Source of the DNA: an uncultured Ruminococcus sp.
Lineage (GTDB): Bacteria; Bacillota; Clostridia; Oscillospirales; Ruminococcaceae
Length of the DNA: 33,236 bases
Assembly (NCBI GenBank): GCA_947176415.1
Contig: CAMWQJ010000012.1
Location: forward strand, 1 to 33,236
Direction: 5' to 3'
Numbering within the stretch: position 1 is the first letter of the stretch; each line of letters begins with the position of its first letter. Shown here piece by piece: positions 7,561 through 15,190 of this stretch. The notes under the pieces are model-generated. The model did not search any database. It was not told where the DNA came from and saw only the letters and a list, made by a program, of their open reading frames with translations. Position numbers and translations under genes: made by a program.

Positions 7561-10011
7561 ATGATAAAAAATAAAATGACGGCTGTACTCTCAGCCCTTA
7601 TCATGTCTGCAACGGCTGTTTTCCTACCTATTGATTCGGCTTATGCGGACAATGCCGTTACATCGGTTTATGAGTATTTCAATAAAAATGATGTCAACGG
7701 AAAAATAACAATTGAAGTCCCCGAAAATACAACCGCACTTATAAGTATAAAGTTTACATCACCCGAGGTTACGGACGAGCCTTATTATGAACTCCATGCG
7801 GAAAAAGGCACTTACTCGTTTGACATTGAGGGCATAGACACAACAGAATACGACTACAGGAACTACTCACTTATTGCGAGCATATCGGACGGCGACAACA
7901 GCGTTGTGTACGAAGATACATTCAACGTCCCTGACGGAAACGACCACCCAGACAGTTTTTATAATTTTACATACTCTTTCAGCGTTGACGAAAATCAGTT
8001 GTCTGATTCGTGGCGGATTATTTCTGAAACTGAAACTCAAAAAAATATAGCAGTGAATTTCAGTGGCTACATAAAAGGAGATGTAAACGGCGACGGATTT
8101 GTTGACACTGTAGACGCTTCACAGGTACTTGCGGAGTATTCACGTATATCAAATGACGGTACTGCAACTTTTTCCGAAAAACAGAAACTTTCAGCTGATG
8201 TAAACGGCGACGGCTGGATGGATTCCGTTGACGCTTCAAGGATTCTTGCCTACTACTCCAATATCTCAAGAGGCGGTACGCCGACATGGAATATTTTTGA
8301 GCAAACACAGGAAACCACAACAACAAGTGCCACAACTTCCGAGACTGTCACAACCACAACAAAAGCAGTTACTACAACGAGCAGTGCGACAAATTCAGGT
8401 AATGCCACAACCACAACAAAAGCAGTTACTACAACAGGCAGTGTGACAACTTCAGGTCCTGCCACAACCACCACCAAAGCGGTTACTACAACAGGCAGTG
8501 CAACAAATTCAGGTACTGTCACAACCACCACAAAAGCGGTTACTACAACAAACAGTGCTACAACTACTACAGAAAGTACAACAACTACAACGACAGAAAC
8601 CACCACAGAAAATACAACAACTACCACATCAACAACGGTACAGGTTATTGACTGGGAAATGGCTTATCAGAAAAAACTTCAGGCTCTCAGCAGTGAGTAT
8701 AATTTTACCGCCGATGAAGATTCAGACAAGGCAATGTATGATTTGGCGGATATAAACGGCGACGGCATTCCTGAACTTATTATATCTGAAAGTTCTTATC
8801 ACTCATCTGTATGTACTGTTTACGTATATTCGGACGGTTCTTACGTAAATGCAACTGGCGCTTCGTACGACGCTTACATGCATGCAACTGTCGGTTACGA
8901 GAAACTGGAATTTTATGAAAACGGCGTAATGGGCATTGACTTGAAAAATCACATAGCCAAAAGCTACTATAAAGGCACAGGGCATGAAGCACTTGTTTTT
9001 TACCGGCTTGAGGGTACGGAATTTGTCGTTGTTGCCAACTTTGTAAACAAATTTGCAGACGGTGCTGAATACGGAACATACAACGACAATATCGTTACAA
9101 AGGAAGATTATTATGAATATCTCGGACAGTATGACTATAAATTTGAGAACTTCGGCAGAAAGTACGCTTATGACATCTCACGTCCTGTAGGCAGACTTAC
9201 CGCAGATGCACACATAGAAACAACAACCAATGCTGACGGAAAAAACGTCTACTGGCTTGTTGCGGACGGTCGCTTTGACGAACTTGACGTTTATGTGCTT
9301 GACATGGAAGGCGACAACGACACTTATCTTGATACTTTTACGGAAAACAGTCTTAAAATAAATCTCAGCGGACTGTATGACTTAGACCCTGAAAAACATA
9401 TGATTTACCTAAGTGCAAGCGACAGCAATTTTAATGAGGGCTGTATAGTTTCAATTCCGCTTCTCCACGGTGACGTGTATGCAGACGCACACGTTGAAAC
9501 TTATTACTGCACCCCTTATAACAGAACTCAGAGTTATCTTTTTCTGAAAGGCAATTACTCATACGTTGAGGTGACAATTACAAACGAGGACGGCAATGAA
9601 TCGGATATAGGAACGTTTGAAAATACTTCTGTGCCGATACGCCTTGCGTACAATGCACAGGCACATTCTGAGTCGTTTTTAAGCATAGTTTCCTATGACG
9701 AAAACGGAAACGCAGGAAATTTTGTGACGTGTGTAATTCCACGTGAAAAACTGCCCGTTGTAAGCATGAATCCAATAAATATCAGCGGTGTGACGGATAC
9801 TTCTTACGGCGATGTATCGGGATATACATACAGCTATATAAGCAACAGGGAGTGCAATAATTACGTAGTATGCGAGAAAATCGCAGACGGCTGTAATGTT
9901 ATTGCCAGAAATGTTTATTACAGTTACGACATAATATGGTGTGAAGTCTGGGACTCTGATACGGGCGAATATTACGGCTGGGTTGACAGCAGTTTTATAA
10001 ATTTCAGCTGA
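7561..10011 (+). CDS. Large secreted dockerin protein with internal dockerin and Thr-rich repeat linker
   Basis: This 816-residue exported protein has a signal peptide (about 1-29, 'DSAYA'), an N-terminal beta-rich domain (about 32-165) and a type I dockerin (about 172-236) with two calcium loops, 'DVNGDGFVDTVDAS' and 'DVNGDGWMDSVDAS'. A Thr-rich linker (about 248-360) follows, then a C-terminal region with an isolated calcium-loop-like segment 'DINGDGIPELII' (397-408). The protein ends in a small SH3-like domain ('YYGWVDSSFINFS'). Dockerins normally sit at the C-terminus; here the module is internal, so the protein would hang from a cohesin with long arms on both sides. No catalytic domain was recognised. 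It closes the acyltransferase operon, 18 bp after the AlgJ/AlgX-like gene. A structural or binding role on the cell surface is inference. Confidence 0.82.
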   Translation: MIKNKMTAVLSALIMSATAVFLPIDSAYADNAVTSVYEYFNKNDVNGKITIEVPENTTALISIKFTSPEVTDEPYYELHAEKGTYSFDIEGIDTTEYDYRNYSLIASISDGDNSVVYEDTFNVPDGNDHPDSFYNFTYSFSVDENQLSDSWRIISETETQKNIAVNFSGYIKGDVNGDGFVDTVDASQVLAEYSRISNDGTATFSEKQKLSADVNGDGWMDSVDASRILAYYSNISRGGTPTWNIFEQTQETTTTSATTSETVTTTTKAVTTTSSATNSGNATTTTKAVTTTGSVTTSGPATTTTKAVTTTGSATNSGTVTTTTKAVTTTNSATTTTESTTTTTTETTTENTTTTTSTTVQVIDWEMAYQKKLQALSSEYNFTADEDSDKAMYDLADINGDGIPELIISESSYHSSVCTVYVYSDGSYVNATGASYDAYMHATVGYEKLEFYENGVMGIDLKNHIAKSYYKGTGHEALVFYRLEGTEFVVVANFVNKFADGAEYGTYNDNIVTKEDYYEYLGQYDYKFENFGRKYAYDISRPVGRLTADAHIETTTNADGKNVYWLVADGRFDELDVYVLDMEGDNDTYLDTFTENSLKINLSGLYDLDPEKHMIYLSASDSNFNEGCIVSIPLLHGDVYADAHVETYYCTPYNRTQSYLFLKGNYSYVEVTITNEDGNESDIGTFENTSVPIRLAYNAQAHSESFLSIVSYDENGNAGNFVTCVIPREKLPVVSMNPINISGVTDTSYGDVSGYTYSYISNRECNNYVVCEKIADGCNVIARNVYYSYDIIWCEVWDSDTGEYYGWVDSSFINFS
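8347..8560 (+). repeat. 57-bp tandem repeat, about 3.8 copies, coding the Thr linker
   Basis: Units begin at 8347, 8404, 8461 and 8518, exactly 57 bp apart. Each encodes a 19-residue unit of the form xTTTTKAVTTTxSxTxSGx. The copies are nearly identical at DNA level ('AAAGC(A/G)GTTACTACAAC' recurs), which suggests recent expansion by slippage or recombination. The period is a multiple of three, so copy changes alter linker length without breaking the frame. Confidence 0.9.
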
Positions 10012-10021
10012 CGGAAATTAT

Positions 10022-10050
10022 TTGACATAAAAATAAATTTATATTATAAT
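10022..10050 (+). promoter_or_regulatory. Perfect-consensus sigma-A promoter of the small dockerin gene
   Basis: TTGACA (10022-10027), 17 bp, TATAAT (10045-10050). It separates the small dockerin gene from the operon before it. Confidence 0.87.
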
Positions 10051-10080
10051 AATGTTATCAATAAAAAAGGCGGTAGCATT

Positions 10081-10644
10081 ATGAAAAATAATATTATTTC
10101 AGCTATCGTTGCAGGTATTTTGCTTGCAACGACTTTTTCTTATCATGTTGCAAAGGCTGAAAGTCTTAAAAAAGGCGATGTTAATGGCGACGGGCGTGTT
10201 GATTCTGTTGATTCCTCAATTACTCTTGCCGAATATTCCTTAATGTCGACGGACGGAAAAACTTCTTTCACGGAAGAACAGAAAATTTCTGCCGATGTGA
10301 ATAATGACGGTTTTATAAATTCCGTAGATGCATCCATGATTCTTGCTTACTATGCCGAGGCATCAACGGGCGGGAATCCGGCGTGGGAAAATAAAAATAT
10401 TGACTATTCGGATTATTATCAGGCTGTACAGATTTTGGCAAGCGTTGATGACAATACAAAATATGGTATAGCCGACCTTGACGGTGATATGATTTTTGAA
10501 CTTATAACCCTTACTGACGGCGAAATAAGTGTATTCAGCATTGAAAACGGCGAAATGGTTGTATCTGACGTGGAATTGTCGGAAGACAGTCTTCCGCAGA
10601 TGTATTATTGCAGTGATATGACAGCAGTTGAAAAACTTATGTAA
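10081..10644 (+). CDS. Small secreted dockerin protein
   Basis: The 187-residue product has a signal peptide (about 1-26, 'HVAKA') and a type I dockerin (about 31-93) with loops 'DVNGDGRVDSVDSS' and 'DVNNDGFINSVDAS'. A short tail follows containing 'IADLDGDMIFELITL' (120-134). The tail matches, in order and spacing, the part of the preceding 816-residue protein just after its Thr linker ('LADINGDGIPELIIS'). It therefore looks like a shortened paralogue that lacks the N-terminal domain, linker and C-terminal domains. It ends soon after the calcium-loop-like segment without a recognisable enzyme. A T-rich stretch follows the stop (10647-10657), but no hairpin was seen. Confidence 0.8.
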   Translation: MKNNIISAIVAGILLATTFSYHVAKAESLKKGDVNGDGRVDSVDSSITLAEYSLMSTDGKTSFTEEQKISADVNNDGFINSVDASMILAYYAEASTGGNPAWENKNIDYSDYYQAVQILASVDDNTKYGIADLDGDMIFELITLTDGEISVFSIENGEMVVSDVELSEDSLPQMYYCSDMTAVEKLM

Positions 10645-10666: not shown

Positions 10667-10695
10667 TTGACAAATCTAAAAATATGTGTTATATT
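10667..10695 (+). promoter_or_regulatory. Sigma-A promoter of the NAD operon
   Basis: TTGACA (10667-10672), 17 bp, TATATT (10690-10695). The expected transcription start is near 10702, directly at the palindrome. Confidence 0.87.
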
Positions 10696-10702
10696 AGTTA
10701 TA

Positions 10703-10727
10703 AACTAAAAGTTAATAACTTTTAGTT
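10703..10727 (+). promoter_or_regulatory. 25-bp palindromic operator, probably for the NrtR-type regulator
   Basis: Perfect 12-bp arms AACTAAAAGTTA (10703-10714) and TAACTTTTAGTT (10716-10727) flank one central A. The site covers the predicted transcription start, where a bound repressor would block initiation. NrtR regulators are known to bind 21-23-bp palindromes upstream of NAD genes and to release DNA on binding ADP-ribose or related ligands. Assignment to the adjacent regulator gene is inference from position. Confidence 0.8.
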
Positions 10728-10742
10728 GCTATCACAAAAGGA

Positions 10743-11510
10743 GTGATTGCTATTTATTCGATAGAAAATTTTGACAGACCGTCAGTTGCTTCGGACTGCG
10801 TTGTATTTGGCATAGACGTTGAGGAATCGGAGTGCAAAAGAAGTCTGAAACAGCGTTCACTTAAAATTCTGCTCGTAAAGAGGGGCGAAGAGCCTTTTAT
10901 AAATCACTATTCGCTTGCGGGCGGATTTGTCCGCAGGGGTGAAACGGTTGAAGAAACGGCTTTGCGTGAACTCGGGGAAGAGGCTGGAGTAGCCGAGCCG
11001 AAAATTATTAATTTCGGGGTTTATAGCCGTGCCGACCGAGACCCTCGTGGCTGGATTATATCATGTGCTTTTCTCGCTCTCACAAAGACCGTTTCGCTAT
11101 GTACCGCCGACAACTCAGATGCAATTGAAGCACACTGGCTTAACTTTAAATATGACGATACCGACGGCGAGAAGATTATTTTGACGGACGACAGGCAGAG
11201 TATAGTTATTAATTATAAAAATCATGTTCCCGAGGAAAATATTCTTGCCTTTGACCACGCAAAAATTATTTACGACGCTTTTATGCGTTTGCGTGACGAG
11301 GTTGTGAATCATGATTTGATATTTGACTTAATGCCTCCGCTTTTCGCCGTTTCAGACCTCCAACAGCCTTACGAGATAATAACGGGGCGGAAAACCTCTC
11401 CGCAGAATTTCAGAAAAAAAATATTATCAAAAATCAGAGAAACAGAATTTTTTGACGAGAGGTCGGCTCACAGAACGTCACGCCTTTACGAAAAAATACA
11501 GGGGGAATAA
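10743..11510 (+). CDS. nrtR: NrtR-type regulator of NAD metabolism (Nudix domain + winged helix)
   Basis: The N-terminal Nudix domain (about 15-150) is followed by a winged-helix DNA-binding region (about 170-250), the architecture of NrtR, which represses NAD genes and senses ADP-ribose or NAD-related ligands. The Nudix box is complete, 'GFVRRGE' then 'RELGEEAGV', matching GX5EX7REUXEEXGU; many NrtR proteins have lost it, so this one may also hydrolyse a nucleotide. It is the first gene of the operon, and the 25-bp palindrome upstream suggests autoregulation. The start is uncertain. GTG at 10743 overlaps the AAGGAG site (10738-10743), while an in-frame ATT at 10752 sits 8 nt after that site and would be an unusual initiator. 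No in-frame ATG occurs near the start. Its stop is 2 bp before the nicotinamidase gene. Confidence 0.86.
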   Translation: MIAIYSIENFDRPSVASDCVVFGIDVEESECKRSLKQRSLKILLVKRGEEPFINHYSLAGGFVRRGETVEETALRELGEEAGVAEPKIINFGVYSRADRDPRGWIISCAFLALTKTVSLCTADNSDAIEAHWLNFKYDDTDGEKIILTDDRQSIVINYKNHVPEENILAFDHAKIIYDAFMRLRDEVVNHDLIFDLMPPLFAVSDLQQPYEIITGRKTSPQNFRKKILSKIRETEFFDERSAHRTSRLYEKIQGE

Positions 11511-11512
11511 TT

Positions 11513-12037
11513 ATGAAAGTTTTAATTATTGTTGATATGCAGAACGATTTTATAACCGGAGTTCTCGGAAATCCCGAAACACAGGCGATTGTCGGAAAAG
11601 TTGCGGAGAAAATCAAAAATTTCAGAAAGACCGAAAAAGACGGAAAAATTATTGCAACGCTCGACACGCATAATGAAGATTATCTTAATACTCAGGAAGG
11701 GCGTTTTCTGCCTGTACCGCACTGTATAAGAGGTACTCACGGCTGGGAAATTATTCCCGAAATATCGGCACTTCTTGACGACTGCATAAAGCTCGAAAAG
11801 ATTACATTCGGTGCGGTTGACTTGCCGTATGCGGTCGGACGTGACGAAATTATTGAAAAAATAGAAATAGCGGGGGTTTGTACAGATATATGCGTTATTT
11901 CAAATGCCATGATTCTGAAGTCAGCGTTTCCGGAAGTGCCGATAGAAATTATATCAGACTGCTGTGCAGGCGTTACTCCCGAGGCACACAGGACGGCTCT
12001 TGACGCTATGAGGGCTTGCCAGATTACAGTGAGGTGA
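11513..12037 (+). CDS. pncA: Nicotinamidase-like isochorismatase-family hydrolase
   Basis: The 174-residue product belongs to the cysteine hydrolase (isochorismatase) superfamily. The catalytic triad is Asp8 ('IVDMQNDF'), Lys96 ('KLEKITFG') and Cys127 ('GVCTDICVIS'). Metal ligands of the nicotinamidase type are visible: Asp51 and His53 in 'LDTHNEDY', and His70 in 'PHCIRGTHGWEI'. Nicotinamidase converts nicotinamide to nicotinate and ammonia in the cytosol. Its place between the regulator and two further NAD-type enzymes supports nicotinamide as substrate. A GGGGGAA ribosome site precedes the ATG, and the next gene starts 4 bp after its stop. It is slightly short for PncA. It would compete with the NAMPT-like enzyme for nicotinamide. 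Confidence 0.82.
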   Translation: MKVLIIVDMQNDFITGVLGNPETQAIVGKVAEKIKNFRKTEKDGKIIATLDTHNEDYLNTQEGRFLPVPHCIRGTHGWEIIPEISALLDDCIKLEKITFGAVDLPYAVGRDEIIEKIEIAGVCTDICVISNAMILKSAFPEVPIEIISDCCAGVTPEAHRTALDAMRACQITVR

Positions 12038-12041
12038 TTTT

Positions 12042-12872
12042 ATGATTTTACTTGAATACAGAGGAAAAACTTTTCAGCCTGAAATTATAAACTATCCCGA
12101 CGGCACGCCGAAAATAGACATTCCCGAAATGAATATAGAAGACAACTCGGAAATAAATATTACATGGCTTTACAGGGGCGAGGAGGAGCTGTTTATTTTA
12201 GCCTGTATTTCGGAGAATCTGAGGGAGAATTATTCAAATCGGATTAGCCTTTATATGCCTTATCTGCCGAATGCAAGAATGGACAGGGTACATGACAGGG
12301 GCGAAGTTTTCACGCTGAAATATTTCTGCAAAATAATAAATTTTCTTGAATTTTCGTCGGTAAGCGTGCTTGACGTGCATTCGTCCGTCGGCGTTGCACT
12401 TATCGACAGGGCAAGAAATATATCCCCCGAAAAATATATAAAAAAAGCACTTATGCTTTCGGAAACAGACAGCAAAAAAGATTATATATTCTTTGCAGAC
12501 GAGGGGAGTTTCAAGAGATATTCTCCGCTTTTTAAAGACTTCGGGCATATGGGTTTCGGCATAAAAAAACGTGACTGGAAGTCGGGAAAGATAACAGGGC
12601 TTGACATTCACGGAGATTCGCCGACGGGAAAAAATATTTTTATAGTTGACGATATATGCTCGTATGGCGGTACGGTGTGGCACTCCGCACTTAAACTTAA
12701 AGAACTCGGCTGTAAAGATATTTCCGTGTACTTCACCCACTGCGAAAAGTCGATATTTTCGGGAAAACTTCTCGGCGAAGATTTGATAATGCACATATAT
12801 ACAACAAACTCAACGGCGGATTTTTCGCATAATAAAATAACTGTTTTTGACTGTACGGAGGGATATTTATGA
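12042..12872 (+). CDS. Prs-like pyrophosphokinase (ribose-phosphate or ADP-ribose pyrophosphokinase)
   Basis: The 276-residue product is related to ribose-phosphate pyrophosphokinase but shorter than standard Prs (about 310-320). Recognisable family parts are 'YMPYLPNARMDRVHDRGEV' (E. coli Prs has 'IPYFGYARQDR'), 'SVLDVHSS' (usually 'DLHA') and the phosphoribosyl loop 'IFIVDDICSYGGTVWHSA'. In standard Prs that loop reads DD-x-x-DTGGT and holds the 5-phosphate of ribose-5-phosphate; here Ser-Tyr replaces Asp-Thr. The changed loop and short length suggest a divergent substrate. It overlaps the NAMPT-like gene by 4 bp (ATGA), so translation of the pair is coupled. The simplest role is supplying PRPP to the neighbour. 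An ADP-ribose pyrophosphokinase (Adps-like) role is an alternative. Confidence 0.8.
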   Translation: MILLEYRGKTFQPEIINYPDGTPKIDIPEMNIEDNSEINITWLYRGEEELFILACISENLRENYSNRISLYMPYLPNARMDRVHDRGEVFTLKYFCKIINFLEFSSVSVLDVHSSVGVALIDRARNISPEKYIKKALMLSETDSKKDYIFFADEGSFKRYSPLFKDFGHMGFGIKKRDWKSGKITGLDIHGDSPTGKNIFIVDDICSYGGTVWHSALKLKELGCKDISVYFTHCEKSIFSGKLLGEDLIMHIYTTNSTADFSHNKITVFDCTEGYL

Positions 12873-14338
12873 CAGACTATATAAATCCGATGCTGATGTG
12901 CGATTTTTACAAGACGGTACACAGCGATATGATTAATCCGAAAATGACAAAATCCGTTTCTTATTATACACCACGCATGACACGTGTAAAGAGGTGGGAC
13001 AGCGTTGTCAATTTCGGTTTGCAGATGTTTATAAAGACTTATCTTGTTGATTATTTCAATAAATATTTCTTTGAGAGACCCGAAAACGAAGTTACGGGGG
13101 AATTTGAAAGGGTATTGAGTGCGACTCTCAGCAATGTGTACAATTCGGAGAAAATAAGAAAACTTCACAGACTCGGTTATCTGCCTGTTGAAATTGATGC
13201 ACTTCCCGAGGGGGAGAAAGTGCCTGTACACGTGCCGATGTTTTCGATAACAAATACTCACCCCGATTTTGCGTGGCTTCCGCAGGCACTCGAAAGCCTT
13301 ATAAGTGCGGAAGTCTGGTATCCTCAGATAACCGCAACGGTCGGTGCAACGTATCGTGATATAGTAAATAAATATTACTCGCTGACTTGTGACGATGATG
13401 TAAAGCGTTCAAAGGCTTTGGGAGCGTTTGACTTCCGTGGCGATTACTGCCTTGATTCAGCACTGAAAGCCTCAGCAGGCTGGTGCTTGTCCTTTGAGAA
13501 TACCGCTACTGTTCCGGCAATTCCGTATCTTGAAAAGATGTTTGACTGCGACTGCACGGAAAATTCCATTGCATACGGCTCGGTAAGTACAGAACATTTC
13601 GTTATGTGTTCCAACTATGCTTACGACGGCGACGAGGTGACTTTTTTAAGAAAAATGCTTACTGAATTATACCCGAATACGAGCTTTTCGGCGGTGCTGG
13701 ATTCATATGACTACTGGAATGTCATTGACAATATTCTTCCGCAGATACACGACGAGATTATGAATCACAACGGCTGTATGCTTATGCGTGGAGACTCAGG
13801 AGACTGCACGGAAGTTGTTACGGAAACTGTTTTCAGGCTGTGGGAGCAGTTCGGCGGAACGGTAAACAGCAAGGGGTATAAAGTCCTCGACCCCCATGTA
13901 AAAGCCATTTACGGCGACAGCATAACTATACAGAGATGTGAGAAAATATATGAAATTCTTATGGAAAACGGTTTTTCATGCTGTAACGTCGCACTCGGTG
14001 TAGGGTCTTTTTCAATGCACTGTATAGAGGAGGACGGCGTTCTTAAACCATTTACACGTGATACTTTCGGCTGTGCTGTAAAAGCCTGTTATGCGGAGAT
14101 AGATGGCAGGGAATATCCTGTTTTCAAAAATCCGAAGGGCGAGAGTTTCAAAAAAAGTCAGAAAGGACTTTGCTTTGTATATCGTGACGGAGACGGAAAA
14201 CTTGCTTATAAGGACGGTTTTACATCTTCAACTATTCCAAAAGGGAATTTATTAGAGCCTGTTTTCAGGGACGGAAAAATTTTAAAGCAGTACACACTTG
14301 ACGAAATAAGGCATAAACTCAATGGCGGTTATTTCTGA
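12869..14338 (+). CDS. nadV: NAMPT-like nicotinamide phosphoribosyltransferase (NadV; or Namat-like)
   Basis: The 489 residues match the length of nicotinamide phosphoribosyltransferase, which joins nicotinamide and PRPP to make NMN. Family features are the N-terminal 'LMCDFYKTVHSDM', 'ALGAFDFRGDYCLDSALKAS' (184-202), 'YGSVSTEHFVMCSN' with His243 in the place of human His247, 'MRGDSGDCTEVV' (306-317, the RPDSG-type phosphate loop) and 'YGDSITIQRCEKI'. NAMPT-like proteins paired with a Prs homologue can instead be nicotinamide ADP-ribose transferases (Namat), which make NAD+ directly. Sequence reading alone cannot decide between the two. Translation is coupled to the Prs-like gene. No NMN adenylyltransferase gene lies in the operon, which matters for choosing between the two functions. 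Confidence 0.88.
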   Translation: MTDYINPMLMCDFYKTVHSDMINPKMTKSVSYYTPRMTRVKRWDSVVNFGLQMFIKTYLVDYFNKYFFERPENEVTGEFERVLSATLSNVYNSEKIRKLHRLGYLPVEIDALPEGEKVPVHVPMFSITNTHPDFAWLPQALESLISAEVWYPQITATVGATYRDIVNKYYSLTCDDDVKRSKALGAFDFRGDYCLDSALKASAGWCLSFENTATVPAIPYLEKMFDCDCTENSIAYGSVSTEHFVMCSNYAYDGDEVTFLRKMLTELYPNTSFSAVLDSYDYWNVIDNILPQIHDEIMNHNGCMLMRGDSGDCTEVVTETVFRLWEQFGGTVNSKGYKVLDPHVKAIYGDSITIQRCEKIYEILMENGFSCCNVALGVGSFSMHCIEEDGVLKPFTRDTFGCAVKACYAEIDGREYPVFKNPKGESFKKSQKGLCFVYRDGDGKLAYKDGFTSSTIPKGNLLEPVFRDGKILKQYTLDEIRHKLNGGYF

Positions 14339-14396
14339 TACACTTGACATATTAACGAATATGAACTATAATTATAAAAAAACGGAGGTTTTGTAT

Positions 14397-15140
14397 ATGA
14401 AAAAATTTGATGCACAGTCTGTGGCACAGCGTATTATATGCTGGATTCAGGATTATTTCAGAGAAAACGCAACTCCCGAAACAAAGGCTGTTATCGGAAT
14501 TTCAGGCGGTAAGGACAGCTCTGTTGCCTCGGCTTTATGCGTAAAGGCTCTCGGAAAAGAAAGAGTTATAGGCGTACTCATGCCACAGGGCGAACAGTCG
14601 GATATTTCATACAGTCGTCTGCTTGTCGATACCCTAGGAATAAAAAGCTATACCATAAATATCGGCGAGACTGTAAAATCATTTATGGGTGAACTGGGAA
14701 GTCATCTTGAATTATCAAATCAGGCTGTTATCAACACTCCTGCACGTATCAGAATGGCAACACTCTATGCCGTCGGTGCGACGGTCGGCGGACGTGTTGT
14801 AAATACCTGTAATCTTTCGGAGGACTGGGTAGGATATTCAACAAAATTCGGTGACTCGGCAGGGGATTTTTCACCGCTTTCCGACCTGACTGTAACAGAA
14901 GTTATTCAGGTCGGCGACGCTCTCGGACTGCCGTATGAACTTGTACACAAAGTCCCGATAGACGGACTCTGCGGAAAGACAGATGAGGAAAATTTAGGCT
15001 TTACGTATGCGGAGCTTGATACCTATATAAGAGGTATTACAGACCTTTCCGACAAACCTGAACTCAAAGAAAAAATTGACAGAATGCACAGGAATAACAT
15101 TCACAAACTCCAACTCATGCCGAAATTTGTTCTTGAATAA
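14397..15140 (+). CDS. nadE: NH3-dependent NAD+ synthetase
   Basis: The 247-residue, ammonia-dependent form (no glutaminase domain) amidates nicotinate adenine dinucleotide to NAD+ using ATP. The PP-loop is 'GISGGKDSSVASAL' (SGGKDSS at 36-42). Further family blocks are 'INTPARIRMATLYAVG', 'NTCNLSEDWVGYSTKFGDSAGDFSPLSDLT' (only in part conserved), and 'CGKTDEENLGFTYAELD', the usual P2-loop region. I chose ATG 14397 because GGAGG (14384-14388) sits 8 nt before it. The frame is open upstream to 14322 inside the preceding gene, but that ATG has no ribosome site and would add 25 unlike residues. It is the last gene of the NAD operon, closed by a terminator. Confidence 0.92.
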   Translation: MKKFDAQSVAQRIICWIQDYFRENATPETKAVIGISGGKDSSVASALCVKALGKERVIGVLMPQGEQSDISYSRLLVDTLGIKSYTINIGETVKSFMGELGSHLELSNQAVINTPARIRMATLYAVGATVGGRVVNTCNLSEDWVGYSTKFGDSAGDFSPLSDLTVTEVIQVGDALGLPYELVHKVPIDGLCGKTDEENLGFTYAELDTYIRGITDLSDKPELKEKIDRMHRNNIHKLQLMPKFVLE

Positions 15141-15147
15141 AAAATAA

Positions 15148-15170
15148 AAGCACTGTTTAATGCAGTGCTT
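15148..15170. terminator. Bidirectional terminator between nadE and the SNF2 gene
   Basis: An 8-bp stem, AAGCACTG (15148-15155) with CAGTGCTT (15163-15170), is followed by TTTTTG on the plus strand. The minus-strand continuation TTTTATTTTTTATTC is also T-rich. It separates two convergent genes. Confidence 0.85.
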
Positions 15171-15190
15171 TTTGTTGTATTTTATACTTG

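Follow-up and report, generated by a model that had tools for sequence, protein, structure and literature searches.

The stretch of DNA considered here, hereafter the window, comprises 33,236 nucleotides of contig CAMWQJ010000012.1 from an uncultured Ruminococcus sp. (GCA_947176415.1) and carries a five-gene operon for NAD+ metabolism in the order nrtR, pncA (nicotinamidase), a prs-like gene, a nampt-like gene and nadE (Table 1). A preliminary description of this DNA had given the same gene order and coordinates, including the 4-bp overlap (ATGA) between the prs-like and nampt-like genes, and had likewise found no nicotinamide mononucleotide (NMN) adenylyltransferase (NMNAT) within the operon; our analysis agrees on each of these points. 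The operon proteins passed the Pfam cut-offs of NrtR_WHD and NUDIX, Isochorismatase, NAPRTase and NAD_synthase, and no Pfam family matched the Prs-like protein at E ≤ 0.001. The preliminary description had read the operon as a possible counterpart of NARP1, known from phage SPbetaL1 and the bacterium Paenibacillus foliorum, in which Adps and Namat, encoded by adjacent genes, turn ADP-ribose and nicotinamide directly into NAD+ by way of ADP-ribose pyrophosphate (ADPR-PP) (PMC12774641). Here, we lean towards reading it as a chromosomal NAD+ salvage module that derives from NARP1 and has moved to the deamidated branch of NAD+ synthesis.

Table 1 Features of the operon and its borders in window coordinates
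Feature	Position	Strand	Basis or remark
Operon promoter-like -35 TTGACA / -10 TATATT	10667..10695	+	11/12 matches, 17-nt spacer
25-bp palindrome AACTAAAAGTTA-A-TAACTTTTAGTT	10703..10727		12-nt arms, 100% complementary
NrtR-like regulator (Nudix and NrtR winged helix)	10743..11510	+	PF21906 50.8 bits, PF00293 50.2 bits
Nicotinamidase-like PncA, predicted nicotinamide to nicotinic acid	11513..12037	+	PF00857 99.9 bits
Adps-like protein (Prs homologue), predicted ADP-ribose + ATP to ADPR-PP	12042..12872	+	profiles, tree, alignment
Phosphoribosyl-type loop DDICSYGGT, with Tyr in place of the Prs Thr	12648..12674	+	alignment; residues 203-211
Namat-derived transferase, proposed nicotinate ADP-ribosyltransferase (nicotinic acid + ADPR-PP to deamido-NAD)	12869..14338	+	alignment, trees
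Gly185, position of SPbetaL1 His187 (human NAMPT His191 by residue offset)	13421..13423	+	fixed difference
Ala213, position of SPbetaL1 Asp215 / human Asp219	13505..13507	+	alignment
Ser240, position of SPbetaL1 Ala242, nicotinamide-pocket residue	13586..13588	+	alignment
Selectivity-clamp helix region GSF...PFTRD	14009..14062	+	9-residue insertion relative to Namat
Promoter-like TTGACA-17-TATAAT before nadE	14344..14372	+	12/12 consensus match only
NadE, ammonia-type NAD+ synthetase by family, predicted deamido-NAD to NAD+	14397..15140	+	NAD_synthase above Pfam cut-off
Terminator-like hairpin after nadE	15146..15172	+	sequence scan

The Prs-like protein has the 276 aa and the DDICSYGGT loop first noted for it; it scored 83.6 bits against ribP_PPkin, below the 113-bit cut-off, and matched the phage family phrog_619 with an E value of 1.2e-65. 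The loop that had looked odd for a Prs is common to the experimentally tested Adps of SPbetaL1, which reads DDLSSFGGT and has Phe where the window has Tyr and Prs has Thr. This Thr occurs in 0 of 131 Adps-like proteins of the window clade and in none of the 35 others that could be read (a 36th has a gap), and the position reads T, T, T and S in four Prs. The Adps tree of 80 rows, built without the L169 Adps (a weak match of 48 bits), put the window protein and SPbetaL1 Adps in a 62-row clade (SH-aLRT 98), with the four Prs set apart (SH-aLRT 95).

By alignment and phylogeny, the NAMPT-like protein (489 aa) falls inside the Adps-linked Namat family. Its best matches in the PDB were 9W5X and 9W5W (368 bits), both of them SPbetaL1 Namat (PMC12774641), followed by 9ke8 (308 bits) and by NAMPTs, e.g., human 6e68 (157 bits). 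A tree of 88 rows rooted on NadV (82 rows chosen by us from the 180-row alignment described below, plus six others) placed it inside a 50-row clade (SH-aLRT 99) that is nested in Adps-linked Namats, and NadV was separated from this clade by a branch with a support of 100. The clade persisted (99) when the eight columns of fixed difference and the clamp insert were removed. Among profiles, PF04095 was above its cut-off and NAMPT_N reached 21.8 versus 25 bits, while the NCBIfam name that it receives is nicotinate phosphoribosyltransferase (421 bits versus a cut-off of 405); the tree contained no PncB. The kinship with Adps and Namat, rather than with Prs and NadV, that had been suggested earlier is thereby upheld in both trees.

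What sets the window transferase apart from Namat is its base site. We compared 180 aligned rows comprising 80 genome loci (the best 80 of 92), two related-genome loci, phage and plasmid relatives, and viral contigs, of which the top 80 of 574 hits were taken; three copies of the window (L005, L008 and L186) were left out of the counts. The nicotinamide amide is held by Asp215 in SPbetaL1 Namat and by Asp219 in human NAMPT (PMC12774641; passages of PMC10907753), and seven nicotinamide-pocket residues are listed for SPbetaL1 Namat (PMC12774641). Five of the seven are kept in the window clade. At the Asp215 position, 125 of 141 clade-type rows carry Ala and 16 carry Ser, and all 141 have Ser at the Ala242 position; among the other 39 rows, position 215 is Asp 38 times and Glu once, and position 242 is Ala. 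The amide-binding Asp typical of Namat is accordingly missing from every clade row, the window included (Ala213). Of 469 usable columns, 8 (33, 168, 184, 187, 215, 239, 240 and 242) separate the 141 clade rows from 37 others by a fixed difference, and two of the 8 are among the seven pocket residues (Fisher 0.005, a value in which column 215 is circular, the groups being drawn by residue 215). Yet this set of rows also makes up the clade in the tree built without those columns. L103 and 9ke8 were left out of the Asp group for the fixed-difference and first co-occurrence counts and restored in the 141-versus-39 counts; L009/L016 and L010/L075 appear, from their equal lengths, to be identical contigs, and SPbetaL1 Namat enters the counts both as a PDB sequence and as L105.

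Published work bears on these positions. D215A lowers the NAD+ output of SPbetaL1 about 8-fold (PMC12774641). Passages of PMC10907753 state that this Asp is a Ser in NAPRT and that Asp is taken to favor nicotinamide over nicotinic acid, and a passage of PMC4442680 puts Ser214 of human NaPRT at this place, from docking. The position of SPbetaL1 His187 is Gly in 87% of the clade, and human NAMPT His191 hydrogen-bonds Asp219 according to a passage of PMC4186856. Residue 215 changes state once on the tree. The Ser215 branch consists of 16 rows (L088, L090, L138, L141, L143, L144, L146-L152, L154, L157 and L162), in which adps often lies farther from namat and the donor may differ.

The genes surrounding the transferase point in the same direction. 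We called pncA, adps, nadE and nrtR by blastp (E ≤ 1e-5) among all open reading frames of ≥90 aa in each fetched stretch, whose flanks measured 8 kb at genome loci, 6 kb at viral loci and, in most of the phage and plasmid references, 2.5-6 kb. pncA was present at 125/141 clade loci versus 0/39 others and nadE at 119/141 versus 0/39, with adps at 131/141 and 36/39, respectively; the 39 non-clade rows include two PDB sequences that have no locus, leaving 37 that do. All three genes were found together at 105 of the 141 clade loci. Bacterial genome loci alone gave 75/80 for pncA, 78/80 for adps and 62/80 for nadE. One scan of the viral contigs with flanks of up to 6 kb gave, for clade loci versus others, 47/56 versus 0/24 for pncA, 52/56 versus 0/24 for nadE and 49/56 versus 24/24 for adps, with all three beside the transferase at 44/56 clade loci. 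Several viral loci are near copies, which a collapse at 90% identity (128 rows) addresses: pncA then stood at 82/94 versus 0/34 and nadE at 79/94 versus 0/34.

Named strains with clade members include Ruminococcus flavefaciens FD-1, R. albus 8 and Thomasclavelia cocleata DSM 1551; further members sit on contigs with a viral classification, which reach 418 kb (L144). The 80 bacterial genome loci are mostly titled Ruminococcus or Lachnospiraceae, in a list biased to close kin. Relatives of the window protein were found in 3 of 148 genomes of the family, its own included, and an alignment search at E ≤ 1e-80 of 398 genomes drawn from the phylum recovered one, again its own. The top match in the phage collection for both the Adps-like protein and the transferase was L091 (MT835544.1), a 35-kb human faecal phage scaffold with a namat variant 62% identical to that of the window, plus adps, nadE and pncA.

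The loss of the base Asp across the clade, together with the linkage of pncA and nadE, points to nicotinic acid as the base and to deamido-NAD (NaAD) as the predicted product; by sequence and context, the base switch is well supported. The direct joining of nicotinamide to give NAD+, as proposed earlier, is not supported, given Ala or Ser in place of Asp in every fetched clade member and the linked pncA and nadE; of the NARP1-like route from ADP-ribose to NAD+, the Adps/Namat ancestry stands and the assignment as a plain Namat falls. The other early alternative, plain salvage by Prs and NAMPT via NMN, was rejected in view of the missing base-site Asp and the Adps ancestry. A variant of the first idea is that ordinary NARP1 operates here, forming NAD+ directly from nicotinamide and ADPR-PP, while pncA and nadE provide a branch in parallel. 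SPbetaL1 Namat being the closest structure and the bacterial pair pfAdps/pfNamat working in this manner (PMC12774641) speak for it; yet Asp215 and Ala242 are replaced in 141/141 rows, including the residue whose change to Ala lowers SPbetaL1 output about 8-fold, and we regard this variant as very improbable.

The weak point of our reading is the donor, and it is here that the main rival enters. The Preiss-Handler pathway runs through PncA, PncB, NadD and NadE, and the operon could serve it if the Prs-like protein made phosphoribosyl pyrophosphate (PRPP), the transferase were a nicotinate phosphoribosyltransferase evolved from Namat that yields nicotinic acid mononucleotide (NaMN), and NadD and NadE completed NaAD and NAD+. 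The base-site changes suit nicotinic acid whichever donor is used, the clamp is altered by an insertion, and the NCBIfam name fits this route as it stands. A search of the genome (91.6% complete) for another prs and for nadD found both. nadD was above its cut-off and nadC is present, both compatible with Preiss-Handler salvage. The second Prs-family gene, on C101, scored 543.6 bits versus the NCBIfam cut-off of 327 for phosphoribosylpyrophosphate synthetase, which counts against this rival, as does the placement of the Prs-like protein with Adps and its lack of the Prs loop Thr. The operon transferase is the only PF04095 protein of the genome, leaving no other pncB candidate, and the same holds for 17/51 operon-bearing genomes; we rejected a single PF04095 match as proof because the control for this search was positive in only 6/14 known genomes. 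Beside the viral copies, an NMNAT-like gene was found by BLAST at only 3/56 among the matches listed (at least three, as distant NMNATs may escape), which disfavors the mononucleotide route.

The clamp residues carry part of the case for ADPR-PP. The window transferase retains the SCL stacking residue (Arg40), Phe392 (its Phe381), Thr398 and Asp400; Tyr396 is replaced, and an aromatic residue stands just before TRD. The Namat clamp motif GSX-phi-X-phi-X-phi-TRD is broken, the window reading GSFSMHCIEEDGVLKPFTRD with 15 residues from Phe to TRD versus 6. Throughout the clade, Arg40 is kept in 123/141 rows, Phe392 in 138/141 (with Tyr in one more) and Thr398-Arg-Asp in 140/141 (one gap), a retention that counts against Preiss-Handler salvage. 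Among Ala215 members, 122/125 have an aromatic residue directly before TRD, and our guess is that it might stand in for Tyr396. The basal member L089 combines the switched base site (Ala215/Ser242) with a plain Namat clamp, GIGSYTYQYNTRDTF, which again disfavors PRPP, and its Adps is 47% identical to that of SPbetaL1. At L121, a clade transferase is paired with an Adps sharing 42% identity with the SPbetaL1 protein and 33% with that of the window, a partner exchange; L089 and L121 group together in the Adps tree with a support of 97. The clamp of 9ke8 reads GAQTYQRNTRD, its clamp aromatics gone.

An Adps-type partner retained despite a second prs in the genome is counted here toward ADPR-PP, and phage cassettes would cover the way from nicotinamide and ADP-ribose to NAD+ fully only if ADPR-PP were the donor. 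Taken together, clamp residues, ancestry and partner exchange suggest ADPR-PP, and we consider Preiss-Handler salvage a serious but rather unlikely explanation. It is also conceivable that the transferase joins nicotinic acid to either donor, feeding both NaMN and NaAD, with NadD used when ADP-ribose is scarce. Namat also uses PRPP in vitro, the SPbetaL1 enzyme keeping an NMN activity roughly half that of human NAMPT (PMC12774641), and the genome does hold nadD, but the Adps-type partner at 131/141 loci counts against such a mixed donor; we deem it improbable.

Several observations weigh against ADPR-PP-dependent salvage through the deamidated branch. Ancestry leaves the donor unfixed because Namat can take PRPP in vitro, and making NaMN from PRPP would be a workable route too because the genome has nadD, as do 44/51 operon-bearing genomes above the cut-off; the remaining 7/51 were rejected as proof, being mostly metagenome-assembled genomes in which incompleteness could explain the absence. 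The clamp carries an insertion of 9-26 residues in 139/141 rows (Phe392 to TRD ≥15 residues, not 6), Tyr396 is Cys or Ala in 136/141, and Met replaces Arg40 in 14/16 of the Ser215 branch. The Adps tree included only four Prs, three of them fragments, on a short alignment with long branches and a long-branch warning from the program, and the placement of L089 and L121 on the SPbetaL1 side had a support of only 93. PDB 9ke8 is named nicotinamide phosphoribosyltransferase, yet the tree places it with the Namats as well. nadE is missing from the fetched stretch at 22/141 members and pncA at 16/141; most of the latter end at a contig end or a short fetch, and four of them (L070, L108, L120 and L139) have >3.8 kb upstream, uncut by a contig end. 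NMNAT-like genes do occur at L143:5365-5952, L108:8234-8821 and L154:10213-10788, with PF01467 in both of those scanned. As the tree shows a single base switch, the co-occurrence of pncA and nadE is one event, long retained in many lines. Finally, both the genome and the viral loci were ranked by likeness to the query.

With these constraints in mind, the steps of the proposed module, whose substrates and products are all predicted from sequence, would be as follows. PncA would convert nicotinamide to nicotinic acid, the Adps homologue would make ADPR-PP from ADP-ribose and ATP, and the Namat-derived transferase would join nicotinic acid, not nicotinamide, to ADPR-PP to form NaAD, which NadE would amidate to NAD+. 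Such a scheme would bypass NadD and retain the ADP half of ADP-ribose. We consider it somewhat probable that this cassette of pncA, adps, namat variant and nadE, in gut and rumen Clostridia and in large phages, performs an undescribed reaction (nicotinic acid + ADPR-PP to deamido-NAD + PPi) and regenerates NAD+ out of the two NAD+ cleavage products with no need for a mononucleotide adenylyltransferase.

PncA best matched 1ilw/1im5, named pyrazinamidase/nicotinamidase (E 4.4e-17), and an alignment with 1ilw inspected by eye paired all the site residues D, D-x-H, H, K and C, presumably the D-K-C triad and the D-H-H metal site; by sequence, it would thus be an isochorismatase-fold hydrolase of the nicotinamidase type. 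The open reading frame of nadE opens at 14322, and the probable start in Table 1 was judged by eye. A sigma-70-like promoter match sits just 3' of the end of the transferase gene, which suggests that nadE, the only one above the cut-off in this genome, may also be transcribed alone.

Regulation of the operon may depend on ADP-ribose itself. NrtR regulators respond to ADP-ribose, and the window has a protein with both the Nudix and NrtR winged-helix domains and, by eye, an intact Nudix box (GX5EX7REUXEEXGU). It reached 88 bits versus the 400-bit cut-off of the NCBIfam family whose name describes NrtR regulators as ADPR-responsive. A perfect 12-1-12 palindrome begins 7 nt past the -10 box of the promoter-like site, a layout similar to that of 18 related loci (hand-picked for display); promoter-like sites overall occur at chance number (12 observed versus 11.5 expected). 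Allowing ≤5 mismatches, the 2.30 Mb of fetched sequence contained 11 palindrome-like sites: the window has one, as does each of ten loci that are its kin and hence not independent. The palindrome precedes nrtR in the window and in L011, L012, L017, L018, L020, L021 and L023, and precedes pncA in L024, L027 and L028, where no nrtR was found in the fetched stretch; a poorer match (6-7 mismatches) occupies this place in the R. albus strains L025, L026 and L031. The palindrome is likely the operator of the NrtR-like protein, which would act as a repressor released as ADP-ribose rises. The earlier claim of such a regulator is consistent with the NrtR-type gene and the conserved palindrome at the head of the operon. 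Translation of nrtR may actually begin with the ATT at 10752, a codon that is ATG or ATT in its close relatives (by eye), and the listed GTG at 10743 touches a Shine-Dalgarno-like GGAG. We also considered Nudix cleavage of ADP-ribose to ribose-5-phosphate as a supply for the Prs-like enzyme; it would be no core step in the viral loci because no NrtR-like gene was found among the 80 of them.

The flanks of the operon are chromosomal in kind, with an SNF2 helicase, a cellulase, a dockerin-bearing lipase and a diacylglycerol kinase. The stretch directly upstream (7561-10644) encodes two proteins that, by eye, begin like signal peptides and carry GDVNGDG dockerin-like repeats; one of the two is Thr-rich. 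A candidate source of ADP-ribose in the genome is a TIR-domain protein of 526 aa (C8; TIR at residues 159-287; L193:3389-4969), for which PADLOC returned no match and which adjoins a radical-SAM/SPASM protein; a macro-domain match was also found and is only a candidate for a role in ADP-ribose supply.

Chromosomal NARP1 has already been published, with the purpose of the bacterial system left open (PMC12774641). According to passages of an mBio paper (PMC11559045), the phage pair was first taken for a Prs and a nicotinate transferase and later reassigned to Adps and Namat, and PMC13232231, as far as its available passages go, employs NARP1 with nicotinamide. Our literature search, in which the original NARP paper and the survey of Tesson et al. 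were represented by the papers citing them, showed no nicotinate version among the papers listed; a term count found none of "nicotinic acid", "nicotinate" and "NadE" in PMC12774641 and PMC13232231, the two that deal with NARP1/Namat. If our reading is correct, a second chemical version of NARP1 would exist through the deamidated branch, in chromosomes and in contigs classed as viral, so that NAD+ could be rebuilt from ADP-ribose even where nicotinamide gets deamidated. A few residues would then set a new transferase specificity, and the automatic name "nicotinate phosphoribosyltransferase" would be corrected for the whole clade. The role of bacterial NARP1 would also become more testable, given clade members in named strains.

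Compared with NARP1, the window shares adjacent adps and namat genes of the same families and the Arg, Phe and TRD of the ADPR-PP clamp, but differs by Asp to Ala/Ser and Ala242 to Ser, by the long insertion in the clamp helix, by the pncA and nadE linked across its clade and its own NrtR-type regulator, and by a predicted product of NaAD instead of NAD+. NadV/NAMPT salvage, where NadV lies beside a NadM/Nudix enzyme (e.g., L189 and L190), likewise relies on a transferase of the type II family with the T-E-H catalytic His, whereas the window transferase lies outside the NadV clade, lacks an Asp219-type residue and belongs to an operon without NMNAT. The Preiss-Handler pathway resembles the proposed module in the PncA and NadE steps, in nicotinic acid as the predicted base and in a non-Asp base site as in NAPRT; it differs in that the window transferase comes from Namat, has an Adps-type partner and leaves NadD outside the operon. 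As in NrtR regulons, the winged helix and Nudix domains exceed their Pfam cut-offs and a palindrome marks the operon promoter, although the window protein scores below the NCBIfam cut-off for the ADPR-responsive repressor.

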